This document shows, piece after piece, positions 117 through 25,257 of a DNA stretch of 32,477 nt; position 1 is the first letter of the stretch; each line of letters begins with the position of its first letter. This DNA comes from a virus, in IMG/VR virus record IMGVR_UViG_3300037107_000061, positions 1 to 32,477 of that record; one strand, given 5' to 3'. The position numbers were made by a program, and so were the translations under genes. A model generated the notes under the pieces. The model was not told the origin of the DNA and did not search any database. It was given only the letters and a program-made list of their open reading frames with translations.

Positions 117-410
117 ATGAAGTCACTACCAAATCAAATCTTCACCATCGAGATCCCCGGCATAAAGAGCCCGATCACCGCCGCTTCGCTTCTGAAACTC
201 TGCCTTGCCAACCCTCCGCAGGGCGGTTTCGACTACAAGGAGATGCGCGCCAGAAATAAGATTGAGGACGCCGTGGAGACAGTCGAACCGGGCGGTACGA
301 TTGAACTGGAAGATGCCGACCACGCCGTCGCCGTGCAATGCGTCACCGCCATGCGCTGGGGCATCCGCCACAAGGATCTGGCCAAGTTCGGGGAACTGTT
401 CGGGGCCTAG
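117..410 (+). CDS. Hypothetical phage protein, 97 aa
   Basis: I do not recognise the family. The product is a mixed, soluble small protein with no membrane segment. It has a Lys/Arg-rich middle (EMRARNKIEDAVE, about residues 42-54), an acidic stretch (ELEDADHAV) and a helical end (MRWGIRHKDLAKFGELFG). The ATG at 117 follows GCAAAGG, a weak ribosome-binding candidate. Amino-acid composition is normal for a real protein, and the opposite-strand frame is poorer. It is the last plus-strand gene before the convergent replication operon. Its TAG (408-410) overlaps the stop of the helicase on the other strand, the two sharing the four bases CTAG. Confidence 0.7.
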   Translation: MKSLPNQIFTIEIPGIKSPITAASLLKLCLANPPQGGFDYKEMRARNKIEDAVETVEPGGTIELEDADHAVAVQCVTAMRWGIRHKDLAKFGELFGA

Positions 411-418
411 CCGAACGG
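396..418. terminator. Hairpin centred on two convergent stop codons
   Basis: GTTCGG (398-403) and CCGAAC (411-416) form a perfect 6-bp stem around a 7-nt loop that contains both stop codons of the convergent genes. C396/G418 and a T397/G417 wobble can lengthen it to 8 bp. A symmetrical stem exactly at a convergent gene junction fits a bidirectional terminator. Neither side has a strong T-run, so efficiency is uncertain. Confidence 0.45.
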
Positions 419-2275
419 CAAATTGTCGGTGGCTTCCTCCGGAAGCTCTGGCTCAGGTGTTCGCACCTGGGCCTTTTCTTTGGGCAGCTCGGCAAACGGG
501 GCCAGCGTATACATGGCCGTTCCACTCTGACCCGTGGCTGGGATAAACAGAACCAGCCCCATCGAAATCCAGCCCTGGATGGCCTCGTACAGCTTCCCTC
601 GGCTGATGGGCTTGGTTCCGTTGGCCGCCTTTTGGATCGTATTGAGATCGGCTGCCGGCTGACCGGGCTTGGGGAAGAAGGGTCGATAGACGGCAAAGGA
701 TTCGGTTACTTCCCGGCCTTTTCTTGGAGCTTCGGAATGGTCTTCAACTGGCGGAGGATCGGCATCGCGCAATTCCCAGAAGATCGCCGGCAGCTTCCGC
801 TTCCTACCCGGGATCTCGATCAGGCTCTTCGAGTGCTTCAGTGGGATCGTGTCGACCGGCTCGTCGCGCCAGCCTGCGCCGGCCTCGACGCGCTTCGTCA
901 CGCCGGCGCGCATGCCGCGCTTGGCCAGCACGAGGTTGAAGTTCCCTTTATCGACCGCCGGCCGAAGCGACATGATGAAGCGCGCCCAGTTAATGATCTC
1001 GGCTCCGCCGGCCATGTCGTACATGACTTCGTGCCAGAGCCGCTCCGCCCGATCCTTCCCAGTCGCCGGCTTGGTTGTATGGTGGACGAGGATATAGCCG
1101 AAGGCCGGAGGATCGTTGATCCCGTTCAGCCCCTCGCGCAAAAACTTTCCCAGATCGGCCGCCTGCGTCACGTCGCCATCCATAAACGCCTGTAGGGGGT
1201 TTATCCATACGAGATCCGGTCGGTGATCTTCGATCAGATGGCGCAGGTTAAGCAGGAACTTCTCACCCCGGTTCTTTCGGTCGGTATGGATTCGCACGCG
1301 CTGGTTTACGAGCTTGGCGTCGCTCTCCGACAAATTGAGCCCGAAGCGAAGCGACGTTGCCACCTCGGCAATATCGCCCGGTGAATCTTCCGCCTGCACC
1401 ATCAGCGAGGTGAGCGGACCGTTTGACTGCATCCCGAAGGCGTTTCGGTTGAGCGCCCACAACGCCGCCATCTGTTTCTCAATCGAGCTTTTGCCGATGC
1501 CGGATGTTCCGACCAAAACCCCGCCGTCGCCGCGGTTCAGATAGCGGTTGCCCACCAGAATCGATCTATCTCCATCGGGCGGAAGCTCGAAGTCGAACAG
1601 CCCGACCGGATCCGGGCGCTTAACTCCGTTGAGCTGGGCCAGCGAGGCGAATTGCTGCTGGGCATTGCCCAGAAAAGCGTCATCTTGGCCGTCCCATCCA
1701 AAACACTGCTCGACCGTCGATGTCGCGATCTTGATGGCCTCGCGGATCTGGTAGAGCTGGCGGACCTTGGCGATGAAGTATTGCGCCTGAACCGTCGTGC
1801 CAATTCGAGAGCTGACTTGAATCAGATATGGGACTCCGCCCACTGCATCGAGCTGGTGAGCTTCGCGCAGTTCTTCGATCAGGATTTCAATCCCAGCCGG
1901 CTTCTTCGATAGGTGCATCTCTACCAGCTTCTCGAAGATAATGCGGTTCGGTGGGAAGTAGAACGCAGCGGGAGAAAGATGGCCGTCGATGCACTTGGCG
2001 ATCGTGTCCGAGCCATCGAGCAGGCAGCACGAAATCAGGTATTCCTCAGCCTCCATGCTGTGCGGCGGCGTGCGGCCGACGAAAGATCCGGTGGTGATGA
2101 TCTCAGCGCGCGGCGGCGGAAGCTGGCGCTCGGAAGGAGTCCATTTGTCGATTTTGTCTAGGGGAACCTGGCGCGGAGAAGGCATTGGCTGTTGAGGTTT
2201 CGGAGCCGCCGGCCTGGGTGCTGGTGGATCGGGCTTTCGCTCGGGCTCGGGATCGCTAAAGTCTATGTCGATCAT
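407..2275 (-). CDS. Replicative helicase: DnaB N-terminal domain fused to RepA-like (AAA_25-type) ATPase
   Basis: Likely unwinds phage DNA at the replication fork or loads the host machinery. Numbering from the ATG at 2275 (622 aa): residues 1-68 are a Pro-rich disordered leader. Residues 70-185 resemble the DnaB N-terminal helical domain (HSMEAEEYLISCCLLDG, then the AVGGVPYLIQV block). Residues 235-460 are a RecA-fold ATPase with Walker A GTSGIGKSS (256-264), a Walker B-like strand DLVWINPLQAF (354-364) and HHTTKP (398-403) before a conserved-looking LAKRGMRAG. Residues 520-592 look like a winged-helix end. The strand ends in Asn358 where many RecA-fold enzymes have Asp. A longer reading from a TTG at 2464 adds 63 Arg/Pro-rich residues and was rejected. 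The ATG at 2275 overlaps the stop of the preceding small gene (ATGA), implying coupled translation. Family assignment is from remembered motifs, not a search. Confidence 0.85.
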   Translation of the reverse strand: MIDIDFSDPEPERKPDPPAPRPAAPKPQQPMPSPRQVPLDKIDKWTPSERQLPPPRAEIITTGSFVGRTPPHSMEAEEYLISCCLLDGSDTIAKCIDGHLSPAAFYFPPNRIIFEKLVEMHLSKKPAGIEILIEELREAHQLDAVGGVPYLIQVSSRIGTTVQAQYFIAKVRQLYQIREAIKIATSTVEQCFGWDGQDDAFLGNAQQQFASLAQLNGVKRPDPVGLFDFELPPDGDRSILVGNRYLNRGDGGVLVGTSGIGKSSIEKQMAALWALNRNAFGMQSNGPLTSLMVQAEDSPGDIAEVATSLRFGLNLSESDAKLVNQRVRIHTDRKNRGEKFLLNLRHLIEDHRPDLVWINPLQAFMDGDVTQAADLGKFLREGLNGINDPPAFGYILVHHTTKPATGKDRAERLWHEVMYDMAGGAEIINWARFIMSLRPAVDKGNFNLVLAKRGMRAGVTKRVEAGAGWRDEPVDTIPLKHSKSLIEIPGRKRKLPAIFWELRDADPPPVEDHSEAPRKGREVTESFAVYRPFFPKPGQPAADLNTIQKAANGTKPISRGKLYEAIQGWISMGLVLFIPATGQSGTAMYTLAPFAELPKEKAQVRTPEPELPEEATDNLPFG

Positions 2276-2481
2276 GCGGTCTGGTGCACGCCTCGGAACG
2301 GCCGGCTCGGGCAGGTTCCATCTTCTGATTCGGCCCGCTCGCGCTCTCGGCGCTGCTGCTGGCCTTTGGCGAAATTGTAGAGCTGGGCCTTCCCAGCCGG
2401 AGGCTCGATCACTCCTTTCGGGCGAGCCACGGAAAACAAACCACGCCGGAACAGGTCCGGCCAAACCTCTTCAGGTTTCAT
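2272..2481 (-). CDS. Small basic hypothetical protein upstream of the helicase, 69 aa
   Basis: This short ORF begins at an ATG at 2481 (MKPEEVWPDLFRRGLF...) and ends with a TGA whose first two bases are the last two of the helicase start codon (ATGA). That junction type is used throughout this genome and is the main argument that the ORF is real. A TTG two codons upstream (2487) is possible but less likely. The product is hydrophilic and rich in Arg and Gln in its second half (GQQQRRERERAES), consistent with a nucleic-acid-binding or disordered accessory protein. I recognise no family. No clear Shine-Dalgarno sequence precedes it. Confidence 0.5.
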   Translation of the reverse strand: MKPEEVWPDLFRRGLFSVARPKGVIEPPAGKAQLYNFAKGQQQRRERERAESEDGTCPSRPFRGVHQTA

Positions 2482-2492
2482 GGGCAATGAAA

Positions 2493-2523
2493 CGCCGCGG
2501 CCGGAATAGGACCGGCCACGGCG
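2493..2523 (-). terminator. Strong GC hairpin between DUF2303 gene and helicase pair
   Basis: CGCCG (2493-2497) pairs with CGGCG (2519-2523) and GGCCGG (2499-2504) pairs with CCGGCC (2512-2517). There is one mismatch and a 7-nt loop, so the stem has 11 pairs. Read on the minus strand it follows the DUF2303 stop and is followed by TTTCATT. It could be a leaky terminator or an mRNA-processing hairpin that lowers read-through into the helicase genes. Confidence 0.55.
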
Positions 2524-2540
2524 TTGACTGTGAAAGCCTA

Positions 2541-3380
2541 CTAGGCCGGGATCGGAAGCGGCAGCGTCGTACCCGTCAGGATCGGAAGACCAGTTCCAGC
2601 AGCAACCTCAGCTCGCATCGCGTCGAGCGCGGCCTCGATGACTTTGTGCGGGCGGATCAACTCGTAGAACAAAACCAGCGTCCCTTCTTTGATCCGGTAA
2701 CGAAACCACGCCTCGACTGAGTAACTCGGCCCCTTCATGAATACCGGGATCTGGATCGTCAACTTTTCTGGGAGCGTCAGGCTACCACGGACGCCGACCG
2801 TCGTTGTGCTTTCGTAGGCGAATTCCCGATCGCCATTCTGAAGACGTTGGGCGGATTTGAAACGGCCGCTGGTTGTTGCCTCGATCGACTGGGCCATCTC
2901 AATGATGTCGGCGGCCTTGGGGTCGATGATGTCCAGGCGATTGTCTTCGAGGAAGCGCGCGAAGGTCTCTTGGTTCATCGCCAGAGTGTTGCTGCCTGCC
3001 CATTTTTTCCACTCCGGAGCCAGCTCAAGGATAAAGTTGCAGCGATGTTCACACCAGTCCGCACCTTCCGGACCGTGATAATCAATGAAGGCTGTAAATG
3101 AACCTGTATCATCGTCCGTCTCGCAAAAGAGCATCGTGTTCGGCGCTTTGAAGCGATTGACGTAAGCGATGAAACTGGCGGTGTCTCGAACGGTCGCAAC
3201 GGCGCGCCGGCGAAGCGGCGTAATGAGGTAACGCTCGATCGATTCAATCTTGCCGGTGCGCGGCCAGACGACGATCGGAGTTGAATCCTTCAAGTCGGGA
3301 GATTTGAACGGATCGATGATGGGCGAGACGTTTTGGGTCGCGAGTTCCGCGACAGCATCGGCTTCTGATCTACGTTCCAT
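2541..3380 (-). CDS. DUF2303 family protein (YfdQ-like), 279 aa
   Basis: Resembles DUF2303, the family of the E. coli prophage protein YfdQ. Its biochemical function is not established, but it is usually encoded in phage early/replication regions, as here. Recognisable parts are an N-terminal stretch ending VVWPRTGKIESIERYL, a middle FIDYHG segment with the preceding FCETDD, an EWKKW...NQETFARFLEDN segment, and a C-terminal beta-rich half (FAYESTTTVGVRGSLTLPEK...IQIPVF). The length is normal for the family. It lies second in the minus-strand operon, 33 nt after the 126-aa gene and 59 nt before the 69-aa gene, with a hairpin in the latter gap. The assignment is by remembered sequence pattern. 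Confidence 0.75.
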   Translation of the reverse strand: MERRSEADAVAELATQNVSPIIDPFKSPDLKDSTPIVVWPRTGKIESIERYLITPLRRRAVATVRDTASFIAYVNRFKAPNTMLFCETDDDTGSFTAFIDYHGPEGADWCEHRCNFILELAPEWKKWAGSNTLAMNQETFARFLEDNRLDIIDPKAADIIEMAQSIEATTSGRFKSAQRLQNGDREFAYESTTTVGVRGSLTLPEKLTIQIPVFMKGPSYSVEAWFRYRIKEGTLVLFYELIRPHKVIEAALDAMRAEVAAGTGLPILTGTTLPLPIPA

Positions 3381-3413
3381 GGGAATAGTTTTTGAGGGTT
3401 GAGAGGGAGAAAG

Positions 3414-3794
3414 TTACTGGGCTTTGGAAGAGATCGGCACGACGACCCGGGCGGTTTCGGCCATCTCCTGAATCAGTTCCATCTGCTTTGGATCATCGCG
3501 GGAAAGCGTGCCGTCGGCGCACACGAAGAAGACGGTCGAACGGTGCGGCGTCTTCTGGATCTTCTCGTTGACCCTGGCAATGGTCTCGATCGACGTCACC
3601 TCGCCCTTGTTGGCCGGCGAGAAATCGATCTCCAGCCGGAGGGTTTGCTTGAGTCCGGTTTTCCGGACCATTTCGATGCAGTGGTCGAGGGCTTCGCGAA
3701 GCTCGCTCAGGGTCTCGCCGCGATGGAGCGACGGGAGCATTTGAACGAACGGATGTTCAGGCTGGGCAGGCGTGACGGGCGGTGTGGTTGTCAT
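3414..3794 (-). CDS. Hypothetical early protein, 126 aa
   Basis: First gene of the minus-strand operon. I chose the ATG at 3794 (MTTTPPVTPAQPEHPF). A reading from 3863 would add 23 residues rich in Arg, Gly and Ser that cover the regulatory dyads. After a Thr/Pro-rich tail the protein has a helix (ETLSELREALDHCIEMVRKTG), then alternating beta strands (LRLEIDFSP, TVFFVCADG). This suggests a small alpha/beta domain. Genes of this size often accompany DUF2303 genes in prophages, for example the yfdP-yfdQ pair in E. coli, but I cannot show homology to YfdP. The function is unknown. Confidence 0.65.
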   Translation of the reverse strand: MTTTPPVTPAQPEHPFVQMLPSLHRGETLSELREALDHCIEMVRKTGLKQTLRLEIDFSPANKGEVTSIETIARVNEKIQKTPHRSTVFFVCADGTLSRDDPKQMELIQEMAETARVVVPISSKAQ

Positions 3795-4013
3795 GGGATG
3801 AGAGAAGCGCCGCCGCTGCCCGGAAGATCGTTTCCCGCCGGCCACCGACAGGCGACCGGGCAACGGTCGGCGTGAGACCGTAAAGTCTCAAGGGTGTGAG
3901 GATGGGTCTGCGGTGCCATGGGAAACGATGCGATCCAAAGACTCCCGCCGGGAACGGCTGTCAAGGACAATTCCCGCTTGACGGGATAAACGATGATTCC
4001 ACACTGCACCGGA
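3795..4013. promoter_or_regulatory. Divergent control region with several dyads
   Basis: This 219-bp gap separates the minus-strand replication operon from the plus-strand regulator-glycosyltransferase operon. It holds a 10-bp inverted pair, ATCGTTTCCC (3827-3836) with GGGAAACGAT (3920-3929). It also holds TGAGAC-N6-GTCTCA (3873-3890) and two TCCCG/CGGGA dyads (3943-3953 with a 1-nt spacer, 3972-3986 with a 5-nt spacer). A perfect -35 hexamer TTGACA lies on the minus strand at 3964-3959, and TTGACG lies on the plus strand at 3978-3983. The matching -10 boxes are poor (2 of 6). A 42-codon minus ORF runs through it but looks like noise. I infer a regulated divergent promoter. Confidence 0.55.
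3969..3989 (+). promoter_or_regulatory. 21-bp repeated motif, copy 1 (candidate operator/promoter)
   Basis: The sequence starts AATTCCCG and ends CGGGATAA, with core TCCCG-CTTGA-CGGGA. An identical copy lies on the minus strand at 25203-25183. The last base is 24 nt before the ATG at 4014. It contains TTGACG, which could be a -35 box, inside a 5-bp inverted repeat. This fits an operator overlapping a promoter, possibly bound by the regulator encoded just downstream. Confidence 0.6.
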
Positions 4014-4229
4014 ATGGAAAACGAGAACCGGAATTTGAAGAGATTTGGGCAGAACCTAAAGGCTCACCGCCTGGATAGCGGATTCCCGACGCTGCGCTCG
4101 TTGGCCGACAAAGTAGGCATCTCCTACAAATCGCTCTTCAATATCGAATCGGGCTTCAACTGGCCATCGATGCCGGTCTACCTACGAATCTGCCAAGAGC
4201 TAAAGTTGCCCGATCCGCCGCTCTTTTAA
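4014..4229 (+). CDS. Small XRE-type helix-turn-helix regulator, 71 aa
   Basis: A probable DNA-binding transcription regulator. The whole protein is about one Cro/C1-type HTH domain. FGQNLKAHRLDSG (helix 1) is followed by LRSLADKVGISYKSLFNIESG (residues about 27-47), the turn and recognition helix in the classic 'A...gis...l...E.G' layout, then PVYLRICQELKLP. I prefer the ATG at 4014 (MENENRNLKRF). An upstream ATG at 3993 would add seven residues and lies only 3 nt after the repeated motif. The gene is first in the glycosyltransferase operon and ends 3 nt before the next start. Autoregulation through the adjacent dyads is plausible but not shown. Confidence 0.8.
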   Translation: MENENRNLKRFGQNLKAHRLDSGFPTLRSLADKVGISYKSLFNIESGFNWPSMPVYLRICQELKLPDPPLF

Positions 4230-4232
4230 CCG

Positions 4233-5657
4233 ATGGCTCGCAAGCTCTACATTGAGCTGGGAAGGAACGGAGATTGCATAAACATTTTTCCTTTGCTCTG
4301 GCGCGACCGCTTCCATAACGAGCCGGCCAACCTGCTCGTCGCAAAGGAATACCTTCCGCTAACACAAGGCTGCAGCTACTTCCAGTCGGTGCTCTATCCA
4401 GGCCCGCACAACCAGCCGGCCCGGGCGGAGACCTGGGCCAAGCAGAACCGGCACACCGAAAAACCGGTGGTCTGTCAGGTAGAGAATAACCCACACGACG
4501 GCGAGCGATTGACCTCTTCCTACCAGAAGGAATCCTGGCGGCTGGCCGGGGCACTCGACGATTTCGGCCGCTGGCCGCTGGTCTTTGACCGCCGCGACAG
4601 CCGACGCGAGCAGGCGCTCCTGGCCAAGCATCGGCACGATAAGCCAATGATCCTCTTCGCCGGCCAGAGCATCTCGTCGCCCTTCTCCGACTCCGCTCCT
4701 CTGCTGGCCTCATTACGGTATCAATTTTCTGAATACGAGGTTGTCGACATGAGCGAAGTGCGGGCGGAACGCCTCTACGATCTTCTCGGATTGTTCGATG
4801 CCGCCGTGCTGCTTGTCACCGTCGACACCGTGCATCTGCATCTGGCGCGGGCCGCAAGGATTCCGGTCGTGGCCATAATTAACAACGGCTGGCTGGGCTC
4901 GGTCCCGCCGCCGTCAACCATTGCCACTTTTCGATACGCGGAAGTCTCAGCGTCCGCAATCCTTGCGGCTTGCGACCGGATATTGTATCCCAATGTCGGG
5001 CGCATCTTTCACGCGGTCGATCTTTTCGGCAACACCGAACGGCACCAGCGCGCGCGCAAGACCTGGGTGAACCTTTACAACGCTGGAGTGATTCCGGTCC
5101 ATGTCACCGACTTTGACCGCGACGCCCGCCAAGTTCAGTGCGCCCGACCGCTGCACTATCTCAAGGACGTGCTCGGAGAGGCTCTGGCCAAGATGGCTCC
5201 GGATGACGTCGTTATTTTCGGGCCGGATGACGTGGGGCTGAAGGCGGAGGTGATTCCATGGGCTCGATCCCATGTCGGTCTTTACGGCGCCGCCAGCATG
5301 CGCCGGCACACCGGACATTGCGGACGCGAGTTGTTCGGCTTCACCCGCAGATGGCTCGACGAGCATTGGAGCGAGATTCCCGACTTCATCCTCGCGGTCG
5401 ATAGCTGGGATCTGGGACTGGCCGCGCTGATCCGGCATCACCGAGGCATCGCCTCGACGCTTGAGAATCTGCTGATCGACTTATTCCCCTGCGAGTGCGT
5501 AGAACGCTTTGCCGTGCACGAGACTCATGCGTCGTCTTGGTTCAAACCGGGCTATGAACAGGAACCCGCCGCCGTTCACAACCGGACGAGTTTTCGCAAG
5601 TGGGCTGAAAAATACCAGCCGCAGATCCCATATAACAGGGACTCCGTGATCGCATGA
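4233..5657 (+). CDS. GT9-like glycosyltransferase with an extra C-terminal domain, 474 aa
   Basis: Residues 1-240 resemble the heptosyltransferase (GT9/GT-B) fold. There is an early GRNGDCINIFPLLW segment (10-23) in the place of the usual G..GD......P loop, and a late block VDTVHLHLARAARIPVVAI (197-215), which matches the family's 'D(S/T)...H.A.A.....VA.' sugar-nucleotide site. Residues about 245-474 form a second domain that I do not recognise. It has GPDDVGLKAEVIPWA, a CGRELFGFTRRWLDEHW segment and DSWDLGLAALIR, and could be another transferase or a partner-binding domain. The gene starts 3 nt after the regulator and overlaps the next gene by ATGA. The substrate is unknown; host lipopolysaccharide or virion sugars are the obvious candidates. 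Confidence 0.65.
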   Translation: MARKLYIELGRNGDCINIFPLLWRDRFHNEPANLLVAKEYLPLTQGCSYFQSVLYPGPHNQPARAETWAKQNRHTEKPVVCQVENNPHDGERLTSSYQKESWRLAGALDDFGRWPLVFDRRDSRREQALLAKHRHDKPMILFAGQSISSPFSDSAPLLASLRYQFSEYEVVDMSEVRAERLYDLLGLFDAAVLLVTVDTVHLHLARAARIPVVAIINNGWLGSVPPPSTIATFRYAEVSASAILAACDRILYPNVGRIFHAVDLFGNTERHQRARKTWVNLYNAGVIPVHVTDFDRDARQVQCARPLHYLKDVLGEALAKMAPDDVVIFGPDDVGLKAEVIPWARSHVGLYGAASMRRHTGHCGRELFGFTRRWLDEHWSEIPDFILAVDSWDLGLAALIRHHRGIASTLENLLIDLFPCECVERFAVHETHASSWFKPGYEQEPAAVHNRTSFRKWAEKYQPQIPYNRDSVIA

Positions 5658-6442
5658 AAATACCCCGCCTAGAGATCATCACGATCGTACTCGACGGGGA
5701 ACCCTGGATCGAGCGGCATCTGCCGGAATTCCATAAGCTCCGCTGCGACTGGCATTGGCATGTCATCGAGGGCGTGGCCAACAACCGGCACTGTACCAAT
5801 TGGTGCAAACCCCTTCGCCCACGCCTTTCGAATGACGGCACGACAGAATACCTCGCCAAGATCGCCGGGGATCCGAGAATCACCATTCGGAGAAACGCCT
5901 TCTGGGATGGGAAGATTACCATGGTCAACGCGCCGATGGAATCGATCAAAGAGCCGGCGGTCGTCATGCAGATCGACTCTGATGAGCTATGGGCCGCATC
6001 CCAGTTGGACAAGCTCGTCCGGATGTTCAAGGATCTACCTCGGATCGAATCGATGCAGTTCTACTGCCGATATTTCGTCGGCAAGGACATCATCACGACG
6101 GCGCTCGGTCACTACGGCAACAACCCCGGAGAATGGCTCCGTGCATGGCGCTACCACAAAGGAGCCCGGTTCCAGAGTCACGAGCCGCCAGTCTTCAACC
6201 ATAACATCGGCTGGTGCATGCCGCCTGAAAATACCGCCAGCCTCGGACTCAACTTCGAGCATATGGCCTATGCCACCGAGGCGCAGGTTCGCCTGAAGGA
6301 ATACCTCTACGGCTACGAGAATGCGGTTGCTCACTGGAAGCGGCTACAGGAGAACACCACTTGGCCGGTCCGCTTGAAGGACTTCCTCCCTTGGGTGGAT
6401 GACGGCGCAACCGCAGACAAACTCAAAAACAAAACATCATGA
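5654..6442 (+). CDS. GT2-like glycosyltransferase, 262 aa
   Basis: Looks like a small GT-A fold transferase. The N-terminus LEIITIVLDGEPWIERHLPEF (6-26) matches the first strand and helix of GT2 enzymes. DGTTEYLAKI (61-70) fits the 'ndGS.d.t' segment, and VVMQIDSDELW (103-113) contains a DxD-type metal/nucleotide-sugar motif (D108-S-D110). The rest (YFVGKDI...RAWRYHKGARFQSHEPPVF) resembles the acceptor-side half of GT2 proteins in which 'W.D.DE.....' is followed by a YR/WR element. No membrane helix is present, so it should act in the cytosol. ATGA junctions at both ends place it firmly in the operon. Confidence 0.7.
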   Translation: MKIPRLEIITIVLDGEPWIERHLPEFHKLRCDWHWHVIEGVANNRHCTNWCKPLRPRLSNDGTTEYLAKIAGDPRITIRRNAFWDGKITMVNAPMESIKEPAVVMQIDSDELWAASQLDKLVRMFKDLPRIESMQFYCRYFVGKDIITTALGHYGNNPGEWLRAWRYHKGARFQSHEPPVFNHNIGWCMPPENTASLGLNFEHMAYATEAQVRLKEYLYGYENAVAHWKRLQENTTWPVRLKDFLPWVDDGATADKLKNKTS

Positions 6443-6603
6443 GCTTCAAAGCCGTTCAGGGAAAAATCGCAGCCAAGCAAGGCGTCCCCGCCAAGAATGC
6501 CGGCGCCATCCTCGCCAATTCGAGCCGCAAGGCGAGCCCGGCCGCCAAAAAGAAGAACCCCAAGCTCAACAAAGTGAAGGGGCTCTTTGGGAGACAAGGC
6601 TGA
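6439..6603 (+). CDS. Small Lys/Ala-rich protein, 54 aa
   Basis: Read from the ATG at 6439: MSFKAVQGKIAAKQG..., then a GAILANSSRKASPAAKK segment and an end VKGLFGRQG. Its start overlaps the upstream TGA (ATGA) and its stop overlaps the next ATG (TGATG), so it fits exactly between two genes and is very likely translated. The product is strongly basic (about a quarter Lys/Arg). The 'FK.VQ..IA...G......GAILA...RKASPAAK..NP.L..VK' layout is familiar to me from short proteins in other phage genomes, but I cannot name a function. DNA or RNA binding is possible from charge alone. Confidence 0.7.
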   Translation: MSFKAVQGKIAAKQGVPAKNAGAILANSSRKASPAAKKKNPKLNKVKGLFGRQG

Positions 6604-7337
6604 TGGGGGGAATCGCCATCTCAGTCTTGCACGCGACGCGCGGCCGCCCGAAGGAGGCGGTCGCCGCGATGCGTTTGTTCCACGACCGGGCGGTCAATCC
6701 AGCGTCGATCGAGTACATTCTGGCGATTGATCTTTCCGATCCATCATCGCCCGACCTGATGCACGCCGTCGGCAATCAGGCCACGATCCTCCGCTTTGCG
6801 AAGATCCATATCGTCGAAATCCCCGGTCACAGCTCCGTCTCCGCCTGGGATGCCGCCGCCAAAAAGAGCAGCGGGACGATCTTGGTGCAGGGACAGGATG
6901 ACATCCAGCCGCCGGAGAAATGGGATCTTTCGCTGGTGGGATGGCTCTACAAGGTCTGCGGCAAGGATTGGGCGTCGATGCCCGCCGTCGTCGCCGTGTC
7001 CGACGGCTACCGCAAAGACCGGCTGCTATGCACCGCCATCTGCAATCGTGCCCGGTACGAACAGGAAGGTGAATTTTTGCACAAGGGCTATCGATCCGTG
7101 TTCAGCGATGGAGACTTTACGCTTCGGGCCTATCAGGATGCCAAGTTCGGCCGCTGCACACTGGTCGAAGCGCGGGAACTTGTAATGCGCCACGAACACC
7201 CCTATCACAATCCGAACGTCCCGACCGATGCAATCTATCAACATGAGAACAGCAACGAAGCCTATGGCCAGGGGGCACAGACGTTCATAACCCGCAACCC
7301 CCTCTGGAAAGAATCTGGATTTGTTGACTGGCTCTGA
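6603..7337 (+). CDS. GT2-like glycosyltransferase, 244 aa
   Basis: Starts at the ATG at 6603 within TGATG. A longer frame from 6399 only reads through the two preceding genes. The N-terminal GIAISVLHATRGRPKEAVAAM (3-23) matches the first beta strand and helix of GT2/GT-A enzymes. SVSAWDAAAKKSSGTILVQG (78-97) followed by QDDIQPP places an acidic DD pair at the nucleotide-sugar site, and VFSDGDFTLRAY is the usual later 'D.dl..R' acceptor element. No membrane segment is seen. It probably transfers a sugar in the same pathway as its neighbours, but donor and acceptor cannot be read from the sequence. A 9-nt gap follows before the next gene. Confidence 0.7.
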   Translation: MGGIAISVLHATRGRPKEAVAAMRLFHDRAVNPASIEYILAIDLSDPSSPDLMHAVGNQATILRFAKIHIVEIPGHSSVSAWDAAAKKSSGTILVQGQDDIQPPEKWDLSLVGWLYKVCGKDWASMPAVVAVSDGYRKDRLLCTAICNRARYEQEGEFLHKGYRSVFSDGDFTLRAYQDAKFGRCTLVEARELVMRHEHPYHNPNVPTDAIYQHENSNEAYGQGAQTFITRNPLWKESGFVDWL

Positions 7338-7346
7338 AATCCCACC

Positions 7347-7616
7347 ATGGCCAAGAACTATCCCTCCCCCGCCGTCCCCCAGAATTCCTCCGGGCTCGGC
7401 ATGAAACCCAACTGGAGCAAGCTCGACTGCGATGAGAAGATCGAGCGGCTCCGCGAAGTCGTGAAGCTCCAGCGCGCGCGCATCGACTATCTCGAACGCA
7501 CCAGCGAGAACCACACCCACGACGAGGAATCAGGGAGACCCGTGCTCCCGGTGAACACCTACGACGCCGTGCGCAACCGCGGCGAGGAGAAGCCCAACGA
7601 CGAGGTATATATCTGA
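7347..7616 (+). CDS. Hypothetical coiled-coil protein, 89 aa
   Basis: A small hydrophilic protein. A Pro/Ser-rich N-terminus precedes a charged helix (DEKIERLREVVKLQRARIDYLERTSENHTH, about residues 29-58) with hydrophobic residues spaced as in a coiled coil. A disordered acidic end follows. Its TGA overlaps the ATG of the next glycosyltransferase (TGATG). I recognise no family. The helix suggests oligomerisation, perhaps as an accessory subunit. A small-terminase role is conceivable from the position upstream of the terminase, but there is no helix-turn-helix and I do not propose it. Confidence 0.65.
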   Translation: MAKNYPSPAVPQNSSGLGMKPNWSKLDCDEKIERLREVVKLQRARIDYLERTSENHTHDEESGRPVLPVNTYDAVRNRGEEKPNDEVYI

Positions 7617-8353
7617 TGGATGATCGGTTTTACATCGCCATTCCGACCCACAATCGGCGCTCCATCGTCGCCGAGTGCGTCCCGACTGTTAAGGCCGGCA
7701 TGGCGCTTGGCGACATTCTGGTGATCTATGATGACGCATCGACCGAATTCGGCTACAAGTTCCTCGAGAAGTGGGCAACGGTTGTCCATCGTGAGCCCCA
7801 CGCAATCGGGATCGAGGCCCAGCGGCGGAATCACTTTCGTGCTTTCTGGGCCAGCGGGCTTCCTTATTGCTACCTCACGGACTCTGACGCGCTCCACGAT
7901 CCTGCATGGCGCAAGGAAGCGTTGAGGCTACAGGCTCTTGCTGGCGGTGCCCCGGTTTGTCTCTACAACACGATGGCGCATGTCACCATCCAGGGAAACA
8001 CGATTGAGGACGATCCCGACAGCGACATCATTTGGCGGCGCGTGGCGCCCGGCATCTCCTACCTGCTCACGCGAGAGCACGTCAAATCCATCATGCCGTT
8101 CGTCGATAATTTGGCCCACTGGGATTGGCAGGTTCCAGAGATCCTCGGCCACCGATTTGCCGTCGCCCGCCGGAGCTACGTCGATCACATCGGGCAGGGA
8201 GGGCTACACCACGATCCAAAACAAGGCTACGATGGCGGAGATAGGGCATTGAATCCCAGCGTGCCGCTCGTCCGCCTGCGCCGGGAAATCGTCGCCCGCC
8301 TAAAAGAAGTCTATGCCACCCGAGACAACTTCACCGAACACGCTTCACGCTGA
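7616..8353 (+). CDS. GT2-family glycosyltransferase, 245 aa
   Basis: The clearest GT2 enzyme of the cluster. RFYIAIPTHNRRSIVAECV (4-22) is the first strand-helix with the usual T.NR. DDAST (39-43) is the nucleotide-binding acidic motif. IGIEAQRRNHFRAFW (65-79) fits the 'g...arN.g...a' segment, and YLTDSDALHDP (86-96) carries the DxD metal motif. DWQVPEILGHRFAVA matches the later region that contains the catalytic-base area. No membrane helix is seen. It overlaps the previous gene by TGATG, and the following acetyltransferase gene begins inside its last 41 nt. Confidence 0.8.
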   Translation: MDDRFYIAIPTHNRRSIVAECVPTVKAGMALGDILVIYDDASTEFGYKFLEKWATVVHREPHAIGIEAQRRNHFRAFWASGLPYCYLTDSDALHDPAWRKEALRLQALAGGAPVCLYNTMAHVTIQGNTIEDDPDSDIIWRRVAPGISYLLTREHVKSIMPFVDNLAHWDWQVPEILGHRFAVARRSYVDHIGQGGLHHDPKQGYDGGDRALNPSVPLVRLRREIVARLKEVYATRDNFTEHASR

Positions 8354-8738
8354 TGTCGAAGAAGGCACGGGCCGCCTCGATCTGGAGTGGACCGGCAAGC
8401 ACCTCCGCCAGCTCTACGATTACCGCGAGCTGACCGATGCCGACATTGGGCGATGCTTTCTCTCAAGCCTGTGCTTCGGGCTCTACATCATGGGCGAACA
8501 GATCGGCTTCGCGCGCGTGGTGACCGACCGGGCGGTCTTCTCCACCGTCGCCGAGATCGTGATCGACGAGAAATTCCAGCGCCAAAGCTACGGCCGCCAG
8601 CTACTCCAGGCCGCCCTTGCCCATCCGTGGGTCTCCGGCACGATCTGCATCGCCTGCAGCCGGCGGGCCCCTGAGTTCTTCGATAACCTTGGATTCAAGC
8701 GGGTCCATGACTGGGTCGGGCAAAGGATGCCGAGATGA
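8313..8738 (+). CDS. GNAT-family N-acetyltransferase, 141 aa
   Basis: Predicted to transfer an acetyl group from acetyl-CoA. GEQIGFARVVTDRAVFSTVA (61-80), then EIVIDEKFQRQSYGRQLLQA (81-100), matches GNAT motifs D and A, with the Q-S-Y-G-R-Q pyrophosphate loop in place of the usual Q/R-x-x-G-x-G/A. EFFDNLGFKRV (121-131) is the typical C-terminal strand-helix. The length is normal. The ATG at 8313 makes a 41-nt overlap with the upstream gene. No later ATG keeps the N-terminal strand, so I keep it. Its stop overlaps the terminase start (ATGA). In this setting it may acetylate a sugar made by the neighbouring transferases, but protein substrates are equally possible. Confidence 0.8.
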   Translation: MPPETTSPNTLHADVEEGTGRLDLEWTGKHLRQLYDYRELTDADIGRCFLSSLCFGLYIMGEQIGFARVVTDRAVFSTVAEIVIDEKFQRQSYGRQLLQAALAHPWVSGTICIACSRRAPEFFDNLGFKRVHDWVGQRMPR

Positions 8739-10555
8739 ACGAGAGCGAACTACTTAAAGCGGCGGTCAGGACCAACACCGGAGCTTGGGCTGAAACGTCG
8801 GGCAAAATATGGGGGAAGGATAGGACCATTGGGTTGATAACCCCGCGCCTGAATTATCTGCAGAAAAAGATCCAAGCGACGGTGAACCAATTCGTGCGGC
8901 TGAAACTTCCGATTCGTATATTGGGGTTGAAACCTAGGCAGCGCGGATCGACCACTTATTTCACCGCACTCGGCTACACGGCAATGCGCCGGACCAGCAC
9001 GTCCGCCATCTTCATCGGTGGCCAGCAAGACCAAACGGTGGGATTGTGGACCATGCTGAAAACGTATAACGACAACGATACATTCAACTGGGGAAACACC
9101 GGCACCGTAAACGAGAAAGGGGCGACGTTCAGCAACGGAAGCCGGGCGAAGAAAGAAACCGCTCGCGATGTTCAAGCCGGGATCGGGGATACCTATACAT
9201 TGCTTCACGCAACTGAGGTTGCCCGATGGAGCCGCTATGGTGTCAATAATGCCGCAGATGTTCTGACCAACGTATTGAAGGCGGTGCCACTTAACCCCGG
9301 CACGGCGATTTTCCTAGAATCAACTGCCGAAGGCTCGGGTAACGACTTCCATAAACGCTGGATGGATGCTGTTGACGCTGAGGATTTCATTGCCGGTAGG
9401 GTGACAATTCAACCCGGCCAGTACGTGAGGGTGTTTGCACCATTTTTTGAATTTGAAGATTCCGCATTACGCCTCGACACCGACCAGAAAAAAGAGATCC
9501 AACGCACGCTCGACTCCGAAGAGGAATTCAAGGGCGAGCAGCAGCTCATCGACCGCTACGGGCGCGACGACAACGGAACGATCCGCCTTGGCACAGCGGT
9601 CAAGGATTTCGACGTTTACGAACAGCTTGCTTGGCGGCGCTACGCCATCCACGAGGAATGCAAACGAGACAAGATCGTCTTCGACCGGGACTATCCGCAC
9701 TCCTGGCAGGACGCCTTTGTTAAGTCCGGCAACCTGCGCTTCAACCAGACCGGACTTTCCGTACTACGGAAAAGGCTGAAGCTGGCTAGCGTCCAGACCG
9801 GGATCATCGAAGAGACAAAGGGCCGGATCGTTTTACGCCCGACCGAGCTGGGCGAGGCGAAGTTCAAGATCTTCGAGCGGCCGACGGTTGGCCGGCGCTA
9901 TTTCCTGTCGGTCGACCCGATGACCGGCATCACCCAAGTCGGCGGACAGGATCCCGACTATCACGCCGCCTGGGTTCTTCGGCAGGGTTTCTGGGGCAAT
10001 AACGGCCAATGGACCCGGCCATGCACGGCCGCCCGAATCATCCGGTCTCGCTGGGATATTGACGTTCTGGAAGAGGCAATCTGGAAACTCGCCCGGTACT
10101 ACGGACCGAGCTTCGGATGCTGCATCGGGATCGAAATGAACCAAGACCGAGGGCTCACGGAATTGCTGAAGACCCGGAGCGCAAATCTGTATATGCGGGA
10201 GATCTTCAATCAGCGCGAACAGAAGACCTCCAAAGCCTACGGCTACCAGACCAATGTGAAGACCCGCGAGATTCTGGTCGAATGTCTGGCCAAGGCGATT
10301 CGCGAATGGGACTCACCGGGCGAGGGAATCGACATCTGGGATGAAGATGCCTTGGAGCAGTGCGAACAGTTTATCACCCGGCCGGACGGTACTTCGGGCG
10401 CGAGCGAGGGTTACCACGACGACGATCCGATCGGGATCGGGCTCGGCCTGCTCCTGCTGGAGCATGGCACGGTCATGCCGCCGCGGGATACAGGGTTCCT
10501 GCTACCGCCCGATCTGAGGGAAGACACGGTTGTCCGTGCAAACCCCTATTCGTAG
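8735..10555 (+). CDS. terL: Terminase large subunit, 606 aa
   Basis: The DNA-packaging motor and nuclease that cuts and pumps genome DNA into the procapsid. ATPase half: a deviant Walker A KPRQRGSTT (66-74), in the 'RQ.G.ST' form common in phage terminases; a Walker B region LLHATEVARW (156-165), where the Glu is the likely catalytic base; and a coupling motif LESTAEGSG (194-202). Nuclease half (RNase H fold): Asp394 in LSVDPMTG, Glu467 in IGIEMNQD, and the HDDD cluster at 561-564, giving the expected acidic triad. The length is at the upper end of the usual range. It overlaps the acetyltransferase by ATGA. No recognisable small subunit is next to it. Confidence 0.93.
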   Translation: MNESELLKAAVRTNTGAWAETSGKIWGKDRTIGLITPRLNYLQKKIQATVNQFVRLKLPIRILGLKPRQRGSTTYFTALGYTAMRRTSTSAIFIGGQQDQTVGLWTMLKTYNDNDTFNWGNTGTVNEKGATFSNGSRAKKETARDVQAGIGDTYTLLHATEVARWSRYGVNNAADVLTNVLKAVPLNPGTAIFLESTAEGSGNDFHKRWMDAVDAEDFIAGRVTIQPGQYVRVFAPFFEFEDSALRLDTDQKKEIQRTLDSEEEFKGEQQLIDRYGRDDNGTIRLGTAVKDFDVYEQLAWRRYAIHEECKRDKIVFDRDYPHSWQDAFVKSGNLRFNQTGLSVLRKRLKLASVQTGIIEETKGRIVLRPTELGEAKFKIFERPTVGRRYFLSVDPMTGITQVGGQDPDYHAAWVLRQGFWGNNGQWTRPCTAARIIRSRWDIDVLEEAIWKLARYYGPSFGCCIGIEMNQDRGLTELLKTRSANLYMREIFNQREQKTSKAYGYQTNVKTREILVECLAKAIREWDSPGEGIDIWDEDALEQCEQFITRPDGTSGASEGYHDDDPIGIGLGLLLLEHGTVMPPRDTGFLLPPDLREDTVVRANPYS

Positions 10556-10584
10556 CAACAAATTGACGGATGTAAAATAGGGGT
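10542..10584 (+). promoter_or_regulatory. 9-bp perfect inverted repeat spanning the terminase stop
   Basis: ACCCCTATT (10542-10550) and AATAGGGGT (10576-10584) are exact reverse complements separated by 25 nt. The span includes the terminase TAG (10553-10555). The interval carries TTGACG (10563-10568). The pair could fold into a long-looped hairpin in the mRNA or act as a two-site operator over the promoter-like element before the giant gene. There is no T-run, so it is not a classical terminator. Confidence 0.4.
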
Positions 10585-10592
10585 GTAGTGGG
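10563..10592 (+). promoter_or_regulatory. Candidate phage promoter upstream of the giant gene
   Basis: TTGACG at 10563-10568 is followed 18 nt after its start by GGGTGTAGTGGG (10581-10592). A very similar arrangement (TTGACT, then GGGAGTAGTGCG at an offset of 19) precedes the scaffold gene. The segment in the -10 position, TAGTGG, matches the housekeeping consensus poorly, so a phage- or host-specific form is implied if it is real. Confidence 0.35.
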
Positions 10593-10603
10593 CACTTACT
10601 CCG

Positions 10604-13600
10604 ATGCCCGCACCAGCCGACACAGAAGAGATGCTGAAAAGCACGACTCGCCCAGCCCGACCAGAAGACGAACAGACGACAGAAGAGCAGCAACAGCCCG
10701 CACAACAGCCGGAAGAGCAGCAGCCGGAACAGACAACCAACCCGCCGGCGGGCAACAAACTCCCGGCTCCGATCACGCCGCTAACCCGCGTGCGCGGGGC
10801 GCTGGCGGCGCCGGAGGACGAAGATCAGCGGCACGCTGACGCGATCTCGAATCTCGAAACCCAGCGCCGGCAGCAGTGGGAGCAGCAAATGCCGTTTGCG
10901 CCGTCCGGCTGGATGCCGGCGGTGCGCCCGGACGAGCAAGCCGCCGCGGTGCGGCAGTCTGATTACACTGCCCAAAAGCAGCAGCGCCAGCAAAAGAACG
11001 TCGACCTAGAGGAACAGCGGCAGGTCAACAGCCAGCGCGAAGCGCAGTTCCGCGCCACCGGCCAGTCGTTCTATCGCGATCCGTATGGCGATCTCCAGCC
11101 GGTGATCGACACGACTGGACGGCCAATGTATCGGCCAACCGGATTCGAGACCGGGGAGAATGAAAAGGGCGAGACCATGATGGTCCGCCGCAACGCCTAC
11201 GGTAAACAGGAGTACAAGACCCCTCCGATAACCACCTCCGGCGACCCGGCCGATGAGAATCTTTATTACAACCTGCCCGATGGCGAGTTGAAGCCCATCG
11301 GCAAGATCGACGATCTTAAGGGGCACACCAATCCGACGATTGCCCATGCCGCCGCCCGGGAATTCGCCCACCGGCATGCCGCCATGTGGCGCGAGGCGAT
11401 CAACGGGGTGGAAAGCGCCAACGGGGAGATCCAGGGGCAGATCGCCCAGGCCACGGCGGATCATGAGGCTATCGGCACAAAAGCCGAGGACATCCAGAAG
11501 CAGATCGATACGCTCCGAGCGGATCCCCATTTCAACGAGACAACCGGCGGGATTCTAGGCATGGGCGGAAAACCGTCCGACGCCGCGCTCCAGCTACAGA
11601 CCAAGGCCAATCAGCTTCAGCTTCAACTGGAGACCACGCAGCAGCAGCAAGCCGATATTGCCGGCCAGATTGCCAAAGGCGGGGAGCTGGACGTGCGGGC
11701 CAAGCAGGCGAAGGCCGATCTGGCGATCTACAAGCTGAAGGCCGGGCACGACAACGCGAAGAACCTCGCCGACGTGCGGCGGGCGATCCTCGATCTCCAA
11801 GGCAAGACCGATAAAAACGATCCGGTCCTGTCCGAGATCCTGAAGAAGCAGGACGAATTCGCCAAAGGCATCCAGCAGGCGACGGACTTTGCTAAGACCC
11901 TCGGACCGCGCGGACTGAGCTCCGGCGATGCCGCTGAGCGGCCATTGCCCGGTCTGCCTGATCAACTCCAGCAAGAGCCGTTCGCCATGGTGGCCAAAGG
12001 GGTGAAGCAGGTTGGCCCGTTGTCCATCGACCGGATCGCTCAGCTTTACGGCGACGGGAAGACAGGCTTCAAGCCCAGTTCTTTGCTGGCGATGAACCAG
12101 CGGATCAATGACATCGAGGAAACGATCCAGGGATTCGCCGGCCAATCGCTCGCTCCGAAGTCGGGCCAGATGATCGCTTCGCTCAAGGAGGAACAGGACT
12201 ACCTGAAAAACCTCTACGCCAATCGGCTGACCCAGCTTCCGGCAGATCAGCAGCGCAAGGTCACGGAGTACATTGGAAGCCTGAAGACGACGGCCATGGG
12301 CGCCGTTTTGCGCGATGCCGGAGTCAATATCGTGCCGGCAATGGCCGCGGCCAAGGCTGGCAAGGTCGGAGGGCTACTTGGCACGAAGATCGGCGCCATG
12401 ATCCCAGGACTGGGAGAGACGGGCATTGGCGAAGCCGGCGGAGCGATAATCGGCGGCGGCATATCGGCCATTCTCGGCTACATGCTGGCCGACAAAGCCC
12501 AGCGGGCACTTATCAAGGCGGCATTCCCAGATCAGTACGACAAGCTCGTAGATTATGCCGCGAAGGATTGGGATCAGCATCCGATTGCCAAAACCCTCGG
12601 CGGAGCCGCCGGACAGGCACCGGCGTTCGGACTCAGCGCGGTCAGTACCGCGCGCGGAATGCTTGCCCTTGGCAAGATAGCTGCCCGGCAGGAGGTCACC
12701 GCAGCCGAGACGGCATCAGCCAAGGCGCTCGCGATTAAGGCCGGCGTCGCCACCGCGCAGAGCGTCGGCTTCGACCTTAAGGAAAACAAGAGCGTCGATC
12801 CGGCGCGCGTGTTGTCGGCGGTCGCTCAGATGATGATTCTCGGCGGCGAGGAGAAGGCCAAAGGCCCATCGCTCGGAGAAATGCGGGCGAAGGCAGAGGC
12901 AGGCCGCGGCGGGCCGGCAGGCCGACAGATGCCCGAACAGGCCGCATTCGACGAACAGCAGCGCATGCCGGCCAAGGAGGCGAACGCCGAGCTCGTTCCA
13001 AAGGAGGGAGAGAACCAACTCGGCGCCGGAGGTCCGGCCAAAGAAGCGTCCGCCGCCGATCTCAAATCGCGCATGGAAGCGATCGACAAGCGCCTCCAAT
13101 CTCTCAAGGGCAAGAACGGTCCGGCACAGGCACATGCCGCCGCCAAGAAGGCCGGATGGAGCGATCAGGAGTTTGTCGACAGATTCGAGAAGGCATTCGG
13201 CAAAAAGAACGCTCCGAAGGCTCCGCCGCCAGATGCCAATTTCAACCAGCAGGGCACCGAAGCGCCTCCGCCCGCCGCCGCGGCTCAAGGGCGAACGAAG
13301 CCATTCGAGGCCGAAGGCCAGCCGAAAGGGGCCAAGCCGCCGCCGGGCGCCGCCCAGGCCGATCAGAAGCCGCCGGGGTTTGTCGATGTCACGACCGGCA
13401 AGCCGATGACGGAGGCTGAGGCGATGAAACCGCCGGGCGCAGAACCGCCGTCCGCCGCTCCAAAAACAGCGCCCAAGCCTCCGACCGCCCCGACGCCAGC
13501 ACCGGCTGGAGCCGCCAAGGCCGCGCCGATCGTCACGCCGCCGCCCGCCGAGCCGGCAGCAGCGCCGAAACCGCAGAAGACCGAGATGGGGGACAAGACC

Positions 13601-16600
13601 GTCGATTTCCTTGGAAAGAAGCATGCGGTTATCGAAGGCCACGGCCCGGAGCTTTCCCAATGGCAGATCAAGGACAGCGAATCCCCGACCGGCAGCCGAA
13701 CGACTCACGACGTTGGCGAGGTGATGGATGCCTTCAGCCGGATGAGCGCGGATGATTTCACGAAACAATCGAAGGCTGATCGACCAAACAAACGAGGAGG
13801 GTCCGAGCACGCAAAGGAGATGGGTGAAGCCGCCAAAGGGAACACCGATCTCGTCGCCCGACTGGACAGCCACGCGAAGCTTGCGCGCGAGGCTTCCCAC
13901 ACTGCGATGGATGCCGGCGACATGGACCGTGCACTAGCCGAGGGCGCCAAGGCGCAGATGTTCCGCGAGGCCCACGAGTTTGCGACCCAAACCGGATACT
14001 ACTCCAAGGAATCAATCGCCTCCCGCGCGGCCGAAGCCGAGCGCGTGGCCCAAGAGAAAGCGAAAGCCAATGCCACTCAAACCGGGGAAAAGCCAAAAGG
14101 TAATATCGGAGAACATCAGGGAATTCCACAAGGGACCAACATTCCAGCGAACGGCGCAGAAGTTCGGAAAGGCCAAGGCGAACAAGCAGGCGGTGGCGGT
14201 GGCGCTGTCCAACGCCCGCCAGAAGCCAAAGCACAAAGTCCGGAATCTATTCGGGCGGCCATAGAAGAAGGGAATAAATCGCCAGAAGAAGATGCGAGGA
14301 TTGATGCGGAGCTTGCTGCAAAGAAGGTTGCCGCTGCCGAGCCTCCCGGGCCGGCTCTGGAACTCGAATCCCAGACTCCGGAGCAAAGCGCAGCGGAGGC
14401 CAAAAAGACTCGAGAAGCCGCCGCCAAAAAAGCCGAGAGTAAGCCGCAGAAACGCACGTCCGACAAGGTGATCGACGCTCTGAAAAAGGCGAAGATGATG
14501 CCACCGGGAGCGACCCTGGGTGCCTCTCCGTTCTCGGTCGCCTATGACGGAGCGATCGATCTGGCCATCGGCGCCATCAAAGCCGGGCGGGCGGTTGCCG
14601 ACGTGGTGAAGATGGCGCAGGAACACTTCAAGGCGAAGTACCCGAACGCCAGCGCCGAGGCTCTGGAGGATTTGGCCAACGACATCAAGATGGCGCACAG
14701 CGGAGTTGCCGCATCCGGCGCCGCTGCCGCCGGGCGCATGCAGAAGGTTCGCGATCGTATCGCAAATGTCGCCTTCAACATGGGGCTCGGGGAGAAGGGT
14801 AAGATCTACGATGAGATGGCGAAGAGCCGGGACGCCGCCGACAATCAAGCCAACCTCTTCGGCCGCCAGAACGCCCGCGCCATTGAGAACGACATCGTAC
14901 ACGCCTTCGGGCAAAAGACAGACCAGAAGGCCGCCCGTGACGCCCTGACGTTCGCCGTTGAGGCCGGCGGAGACAGCAAGGCGCTCGACGCGATGGCCGC
15001 CAAGATTGGCGCGAGCAAGAAGGCGCCGGAGAAGTGGAAGCAGCGCGCTCTCGATTCGATTGCCTTTGCTCAGGCCCACATGGCGGAGATGAAGCCGATG
15101 GTGGACCGCTATCACCGCATGACGCGGGATCAGGTGACCGCCGAGAACGCCGCCGGCATCGACACGATCTATCGATCGAACTACGTCATGCACGCCCAGG
15201 ACATCGACAATTCCTTGGGTCACTGGTTCACCGGGGAAGGAAGCCGTGGCGACTTCAGCAGTTTCGAGAAGAACCGCACGCATGAGACTTTTGCCGACTC
15301 GCTCGCCGCCGGCGTCAACCCGAAGAGCCTGGACGCGCTCGACCTCCTGCAATCCCGGCTGATGCACGGCCAGCGCATGATCAACAAGGGCGCCTGGATG
15401 GAAGGGCTGAAGGGGATTACCGACCCGCTGACCAAGAGCCCGATCGCCGCCGAACCGACCCTAAAGGAACGTGCGAACGGATCGAAGTATTTCGACGCTC
15501 CGAAGGGTTACACCGTCGAGCACGTCGGCCGCACAGCCATCGCCGTGATGAATGGATACGAGGGAATCTTTCACGCGCTGACCGATCCAAGCCGCCTTGG
15601 CGATGATGGGTTCATGAAGGTTGTCCAGCAGGCCAACGCCGGAGGGAAGTCGTCGAACCTGCTCTTCGACAGTTTCCACTTCGGCCGGCTGGCGGCCTGG
15701 AACGCCGCCATGCGTGCAAACGCGGGCGGAGTGATGGGCGGAGGCGCTGAAATGCCCAACCCGTTTTCCTATAAGCGCGGCCTCAATCTACTCGATAACA
15801 CCCCGGGCGAGATCGTCAAACAGGCCCGGCTCGACGGCTGCTCGCCGGAGCAAATCAAGCAGCTCATCCAGACCAAGGTGAAGCTCGACATGCTCACGAA
15901 GGAAGGGATGAACGTCGGGCAGATCGCCGACAATCTCCACCAAGAAGTCTTGCGGCGACTCCCGGTGATCGGGCGGTTCAATAAATTCCTCTTCGACTCC
16001 TTCCAGCGCGGCATCATGTCCGAGATCGGAACGATGGAATATGACCGGCAGCGCGGGATGAAGGGCAACGCCGGACTCAGTGACCAAGAGGTTGCCAGAA
16101 AGGTTGCCCAGGAGATCAACACCCGATTCGGCAACTTTGGCCGGCAAGGGCAATTCAAGAGCAAGTCCGCCCAGGATGTCATGCGGCTGCTCGTGCTGGC
16201 TCCGCAGTGGAACGAGGGACTACTCAAGTCGGAAGGCGGCGCCGTCGTCAACGCCGGCAAGTCGGCCGCCAACCTCGCCATGGGCAAAGGGCTCGCCACC
16301 TCAATGCTGACGCGCTCCGTGGCGACCATGGTGCTCGCAACCTTTGTCGGGAATCAACTACTCAACCAGTACACCCGTGGCAAGTGGACATGGGAGAATC
16401 CTGAAGAGGGGATCGGGGCCAAGCTCTCCGCCTGGATTCCTGACGTCATCGGAAAAGGCCCCGGATTCTTTCTGAACCCAATGGGCATCGGCGCTGAGGT
16501 CACCCACCTGATCATGTCGAAGTACGAGAAGACCGATAGCATGAGGCGATCAGTCGGAGGGTTTATTCGATCCCGTGCTTCCGCAATCGGTCGGCCGGTG

Positions 16601-25182: not shown

Positions 25183-25203
25183 TTATCCCGTCAAGCGGGA
25201 ATT
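25183..25203 (-). promoter_or_regulatory. 21-bp repeated motif, copy 2 (candidate operator/promoter)
   Basis: On the minus strand this is base-for-base identical to 3969-3989, with core TCCCG-CTTGA-CGGGA. It ends 23 nt before the GTG of the GT9 gene, almost the same spacing as copy 1 to its ATG. TTGACG inside it could be a -35 box; the -10 position reads TTCGAT (3 of 6). The bases flanking the 21 bp are not conserved between copies. Confidence 0.6.
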
Positions 25204-25252: not shown

Positions 25253-25257
25253 AAAAT

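Follow-up and report, generated by a model that had tools for sequence, protein, structure and literature searches.

A putative phage-specific operator over the -35 box at XRE and glycosyltransferase genes of uncultured phages

Why should one phage carry the same 21 bp twice, 21 kb apart and in inverted orientation, once before the gene of a small XRE regulator that is followed by glycosyltransferases and once before a solitary GT9 gene? An earlier note on this DNA had taken the repeat for an operator on a promoter common to both units, controlled by the XRE protein or by a host factor. We propose, with a probability of roughly 0.7, that the motif is a phage-specific operator lying over the -35 box of a leaderless promoter and bound by the XRE protein, which would most likely repress both its own unit and GT9.

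The repeat and its surroundings

The window, by which we mean the whole stretch analyzed (a 32,477-bp IMG/VR virus record, W in the comparisons), holds AATTCCCGCTTGACGGGATAA as an exact pair (Table 1). This is the window's sole exact repeat of that length and also its longest, against a maximum of 18 bp in 60 first-order Markov shuffles, and the next best match to the 21-mer has six mismatches. In two other samples, near-identical contigs (L004/L017 and L005/L016) carry both copies unchanged, which excludes an assembly error: the pair is as first described, and its flanks are indeed not shared between the copies. The reported distances of 24 nt to the XRE ATG and 23 nt to the GT9 GTG likewise hold with starts at 4014 and 25159. 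An upstream in-frame ATG at 3993 would leave a gap of 3 nt before XRE, but ATG 4014 is favored because the spacing is constant in relatives; the GT9 start is backed by the M/V-H-x-L N termini of its orthologues. A scan of GTDB genomes with the 18-mer core returned only eight matches, in unrelated taxa, which equals the chance expectation, and a viral match (L003) was set aside as accidental, lying within a coding ORF of an unrelated phage. A shorter palindrome upstream of copy 1 is a possible auxiliary site.

Around these sites, DnaB and DUF2303 genes run leftward, and XRE, glycosyltransferases, a GNAT acetyltransferase, terminase, a 2208-aa protein, portal and capsid run rightward, with GT9 reversed. 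Pfam matches among the genes from 407 to 8738 and GT9 comprise glycosyltransferases, GNAT, DnaB and DUF2303. The genes behind XRE (4233-8353) have orthologues in relatives. The GNAT and terminase genes probably belong to the same transcription unit as XRE and the glycosyltransferases, with which they are co-directional and contiguous. Elsewhere in the window, a 74-nt imperfect direct repeat (73%; 23248-23321 and 23473-23546) lies within a 285-aa low-complexity protein (22903-23760).

Table 1. Features of the window, and dyads before genes of related phages
Feature	Position	Strand	Remarks
Putative operator/promoter, copy 1	3969-3989	+	Dyad TCCCG-CTTGA-CGGGA 3972-3986; -35 TTGAC 3978-3982; center 35 nt before XRE ATG 4014; position kept in relatives
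Putative operator/promoter, copy 2	25183-25203	-	Dyad 25186-25200; TTGAC 25194-25190; center 34 nt before GT9 GTG 25159
Shorter palindrome TCCCG-C-CGGGA	3943-3953		Upstream of copy 1, same arm sequence; absent at GT9; read from window sequence
XRE (HTH_3/Cro-C1) regulator	4014-4229	+	71 aa (78 aa if ATG 3993); Pfam, AlphaFold2, Foldseek; candidate binder of both operators
Glycosyltransferase-like (per earlier note)	4233-5657	+	No Pfam match; behind XRE
GT2-like	5654-6442	+	Behind XRE
Conserved protein	6399-7337	+	Behind XRE
Small gene	7347-7616	+	Behind XRE
GT2	7616-8353	+	Behind XRE
GNAT acetyltransferase	8313-8738	+	Contiguous and co-directional with large terminase
Large terminase (TerL)	8735-10555	+	Follows GNAT
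Control promoter without dyad	10563-10603	+	TTGACG 41 nt before ATG of 2208-aa gene
2208-aa protein gene	10604-17230	+	Between terminase and portal; only parts conserved in relatives
GT9 (heptosyltransferase-like)	23990-25159	-	PF01075, E=2.4e-18; isolated, reversed relative to neighbors; orthologues aligned
Control promoter without dyad	25222-25257	+	TTGACT 36 nt before ATG 25258 of scaffold/capsid unit
L041, XRE site			TTACCG-CTTGA-CGGTAA
G009, GT9 and 56-aa gene sites			TTCTCG-CTTGA-CGGGAA
G008, GT9 site			ATCTTG-TTTGA-CAAGAT
G011, five sites			TTTCG-CTTGA-CGAAA or CGATA
G027, GT9 and second site			TTTCCG-CTTGA-CGGAAA; XRE site one base off
G012 XRE site, G026/G029 GT9 site			TTCGCG-CTTGA-CGGTAA
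G025, XRE and 52-aa gene sites			TCTTG-(C/T)TTGA-CGAGA
G003, XRE and GT9 sites			TCTTG-CTTGA-C, poor right arms

Matched dyads in related phages

Whole contigs of relatives were searched. A single-sequence terminase scan gave a near-identical contig and relatives at 58%; alignment-based terminase scans gave about a dozen closer relatives (TerL 47-66% amino acid identity) and many distant ones; and a GT9 scan added others. Among annotated phages, protein searches turned up distant relatives of the terminase only, and none of GT9. A profile search placed XRE orthologues in the window and in G003, G004, G007, G009, G011, G012, G015, G024, G025, G027 and L041, and GT9 orthologues are present in most contigs searched.

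The earlier note had advised looking in relatives for the core at the same distance from starts. The exact sequence is absent from the diverged relatives, but these keep the element at XRE and GT9 in a version of their own, so that a phage-specific dyad stands at the same two genes at the same distance, as a promoter operator common to both units would. In G004, TTTCGCG-CTTGA-CGCGAATC precedes both genes: CGCTTGACG occurs exactly twice, before XRE and before GT9, within an identical 20-mer (TTTCGCGCTTGACGCGAATC) that is found nowhere else at 0-1 mismatch in the 15-bp core. Sites of the same kind with other arms stand before XRE in L041, G012, G015, G025 and G027 and, more weakly, in G003 and G007, where symmetry is poor, and before GT9 in G003, G008, G009, G011, G026/G029, G027, G028, G030, L102 and L106 (Table 1); G012 and G026, which share an identical stretch, are probably one phage. 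The central TTGAC is invariant and stands 34-39 nt ahead of the start codon. The arms are symmetric, alike between the copies of one phage and different between phages, and the center lies 33-39 nt before the start in nearly all sites. Certain arms are common to two phages (CCCG in W and G030, TTTCG in G011 and G028). No site lies directly upstream of XRE in G009 and G024, and the dyad is absent at GT9 of G013, G014, G015, G024 and G025; in G009, a third copy 2.2 kb upstream of XRE heads genes that run toward it in the same direction and may thus still head the XRE unit.

Exact inverted copies separated by 21 kb, as the window has them, might also be sites for site-specific inversion of the intervening DNA, or remnants of a mobile element or duplication. 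We find this scarcely credible: in G003 and G004 both sites point the same way, each toward its gene; the copies have no flanking sequence in common; three to five copies, mostly before genes, occur in G027 and G011; and no recombinase was found among the window genes tested. Nor is the dyad spread through coding DNA, a distribution that would have spoken against an operator. Around the pattern NTTGA-C, dyads with arms of at least 5 bp are expected about once per nine shuffled genomes, against some ten non-redundant sites observed, each with an ORF start within 80 nt downstream.

The window has two sites and its relatives two to six, mostly 33-41 nt before starts. Further dyad copies or similar sites (G011:3933, 6420, 9342 and 49683; G027:55004 and 33586; G003:7229) precede genes of unknown function, in G003 a lipoprotein-like gene, and such extra copies suggest that in some relatives the regulon extends beyond XRE and GT9. 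Small proteins of 52-56 aa with the pattern F(Y/I)VEL are encoded behind operator copies or similar TTGAC promoters (G009:52975, plus strand; G025:16953, minus; G008:23737, plus); they look like ribbon-helix-helix DNA-binding proteins, and the two tested had no Pfam match. GT9 itself runs against portal and capsid in the window but, in G003 and G004, in the direction of terminase and portal, which suggests that gene and operator moved or flipped as a unit. A tRNA-like sequence lies directly upstream of GT9 in G007 (9590-9680).

A putative leaderless promoter class and its dyad-bearing subset

Across 20 contigs, TTGAC is enriched 34-38 nt before start codons, with 19 genes at 35 nt against about one per distance for permuted 5-mers. 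The scaffold gene has TTGAC 34-36 nt before its start, and no dyad, in 14 phages (the window and 13 relatives), an arrangement that makes a useful promoter rule for the family. When genes are aligned on TTGAC, the sole clear signal outside the operator region is an A/T at +24 from the first T, or -11 with the start codon counted as +1; support for a -10 element is modest and the element weak, the EM log-likelihood being 20.1 vs. 14.8±2.1 for shuffles. A Shine-Dalgarno sequence precedes 6 of 47 genes with TTGAC at 35 nt and 116 of 686 others, at a random rate of 12%; its frequency is thus near random in both classes, does not separate them, and speaks neither for nor against leaderless starts. 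A consensus sigma-70 scan called no promoter at either copy in the window. Two further assignments were rejected: a -10 box at the 5' end of the 21-mer (CATAAT/GACAAT), because relatives do not conserve this segment and TTGAC suits a -35 element counted from the start, and a terminator, because copy 1 has just one terminator-like call nearby, which lies on the minus strand. The layout points to a leaderless promoter class of sigma-70 type with a weak -10, in which the XRE and GT9 subset would carry a phage-specific operator over the -35. The earlier placement of an internal TTGACG on a promoter is thereby upheld and refined, TTGAC appearing as the -35 element of a class found at many genes of these phages.

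The promoters lacking the dyad also serve as controls for its symmetry. For the pairing statistics, only XRE and GT9 sites were used, selected for the gene they precede irrespective of symmetry. At these sites, 3.41 of the 5 arm positions 4-8 pair on average, against 1.26 at the promoters of the scaffold and 2208-aa genes in these phages (p=3.5e-6, or p=1e-5 if the window is omitted), p-values that, like the others given here, are guides and not exact probabilities because the phages share ancestry. Pairing, which is 4.48 of 6 at the true center, reaches no more than 2.52 when the center is moved by 0.5-3 bases. The left and right arms match better within a phage than across phages in all 20,000 of 20,000 permutations, and copies of one phage have 8.7 of 11 arm bases in common vs. 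6.1 between phages (p=5.5e-4); two control promoters of one phage agree at only about 4 of 12.

Covarying arms around a constant loop would also suit an RNA hairpin in a 5' leader (stem UCCCG/CGGGA, loop CUUGA) that controls translation or mRNA stability; the strand does fold in this way (-7.1 kcal/mol, z=-3.1), and at least one pair becomes G-U in G009, G025 and L106. The stem is broken, however, in G012/G026 and G003 even though the copies within each phage largely agree, the identical flanks outside it (AA, TAA) are not required by a hairpin, and TTGAC occurs at the same distance in the stemless control promoters, which places the element probably upstream of the transcript. We therefore hold the hairpin to be very improbable, and an operator on DNA remains our reading of the dyad.

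The XRE protein as candidate regulator

The window XRE matches Pfam HTH_3 at E=1.1e-4 and 22.6 bits, just under the 23-bit cut-off, and its orthologues score 27-38 bits, above it. An AlphaFold2 model built from a 12-sequence alignment (pLDDT 90) has an HTH domain, for which Foldseek returned C.BclI, C.AhdI and a designed HTH protein as the nearest structures, followed by other XREs and P22 c2; XRE profile matches were found in the PDB, and the protein is a member of HTH_XRE (Cro/C1-type). Residue 29 of the recognition helix (434 numbering) is Lys in W, G004, G003, G009 and G025, and C occupies operator position ±6 in 9 of 10 half-sites of these phages vs. 3 of 10 in the others (p=0.02). Over ten related phages, helix and operator distances correlate (Mantel r=0.37, p=0.018). 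That residue 29 tracks the base at ±6 is only suggestive, because the test came after the correspondence had been seen and the phages share ancestry.

The 71-aa XRE protein of the phage itself is most likely the regulator. It is favored over a host factor by the arms, which within each phage change together and follow the XRE recognition helix. A host transcription factor whose regulon the phage borrows is improbable: the arms common to W and G030 and to G011 and G028 could reflect a shared host, but related phages differ in their arms around a constant TTGAC, the core occurs in GTDB genomes no more often than chance predicts, and G013 and G014, where the search returned no XRE, are likewise without the dyad at GT9. 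The two controllers first suggested thus fare differently, the phage's own XRE fitting well and the host factor less so.

The closest known arrangement is found in the controller proteins of restriction-modification systems. In C.Csp231I, whose C-box is CTAAG-n5-CTTAG, repression acts through the repeat that the -35 overlaps, and transcription is leaderless (PMC4824078). Like C.Csp231I, C.AhdI, C.BclI and C.Esp1396I, the phage XRE is a small single-domain HTH protein encoded by the first gene of its unit, preceded by an inverted repeat of 5-bp arms and a 5-bp spacer overlapping the -35 (TCCCG-N5-CGGGA over TTGAC in the window); C.Esp1396I also has a second site before another gene (PMC4824078). 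In the phages, TTGAC at -35 from the start codon of many genes, with A/T at -11, may point to leaderless transcripts. Unlike these systems, glycosyltransferases and terminase follow the phage XRE, with no restriction endonuclease or methyltransferase beside it, and specificity differs between related phages.

An XRE protein bound to the same operator might instead activate, or switch from activation to repression as such controllers do (PMC4824078); C.BclI and C.AhdI have the nearest folds, and dependence on an activator would fit a weak -10. We nonetheless consider activation unlikely. The dyad is centered on the -35 box, where the OR sites of C proteins repress, activating sites lying farther upstream; the phage promoters have one dyad and no second tandem dyad of this geometry in place of an OL and OR pair, the window having only the extra shorter palindrome; and the window XRE has P-T-L-R in place of the sigma-contacting SQE motif, relatives varying there. 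With neither an OL site nor an SQE motif, the activating half of the C-protein mechanism is disfavored here, and repression is more likely.

Other phage regulators are comparable in part. As in lambdoid Cro/CI systems (434, P22 c2), an HTH_XRE fold goes with the same dyad geometry and phage-specific operators with matching recognition helices, and XRE lies in a divergent region between replication-side and structural-side operons; here, however, the 3863-4014 intergenic region has one XRE and one dyad, an opposing second repressor and a triplet of tandem operators were not found, and single sites are dispersed before particular genes. Related Cluster A mycobacteriophages carry different, internally uniform sets of dispersed repressor sites (PMC6550527). 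These stoperators, phage-specific as ours are, differ in being asymmetric, 13 bp long, about 20-30 per genome and mostly outside promoters, whereas the sites described here are near-palindromic, two to six per phage and mostly in promoters. TgrL of phiCbK is likewise a phage-encoded XRE factor that controls transcription during infection, but it binds host-chromosome sites shared with host XREs (PMC10688885), whereas our candidate sites are in the phage genome and differ between phages.

In light of these comparisons, we propose that host RNA polymerase would read TTGAC, which begins some 35 nt ahead of the start codon, and most likely begin transcription at or within a few bases of that codon. 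An XRE dimer, the most likely binder, would contact half-sites (TTCCCG and its partner) one helical turn apart that flank TTGA. The bound protein would cover the -35 box and so most likely repress its own unit (XRE, glycosyltransferases, GNAT and terminase) as well as the separate GT9, thereby coupling the dose or timing of the two.

XRE autoregulators, palindromic operators and leaderless promoters are each of known kinds; the open-licence papers searched gave no instance of the combination seen in these phages, or of operators changing side by side around a promoter core that stays fixed. One repeat in one contig has become a testable regulon across some 15 uncultured phages, and a natural repressor-operator series of fixed promoter core and changing specificity that is useful for studying specificity switches in phage regulators. 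The promoter rule, TTGAC at 35 nt from the start with probably leaderless transcription, helps to annotate these phages, and the sites offer an initial hint of the time at which they express their glycosyltransferases. Tentatively, this uncultured family may possess an autoregulated XRE switch resembling a restriction controller, with no restriction-modification genes beside it, that ties glycosyltransferases and packaging together through leaderless promoters, and operator and recognition helix may diverge together, which would let closely related phages stay independently regulated during co-infection.
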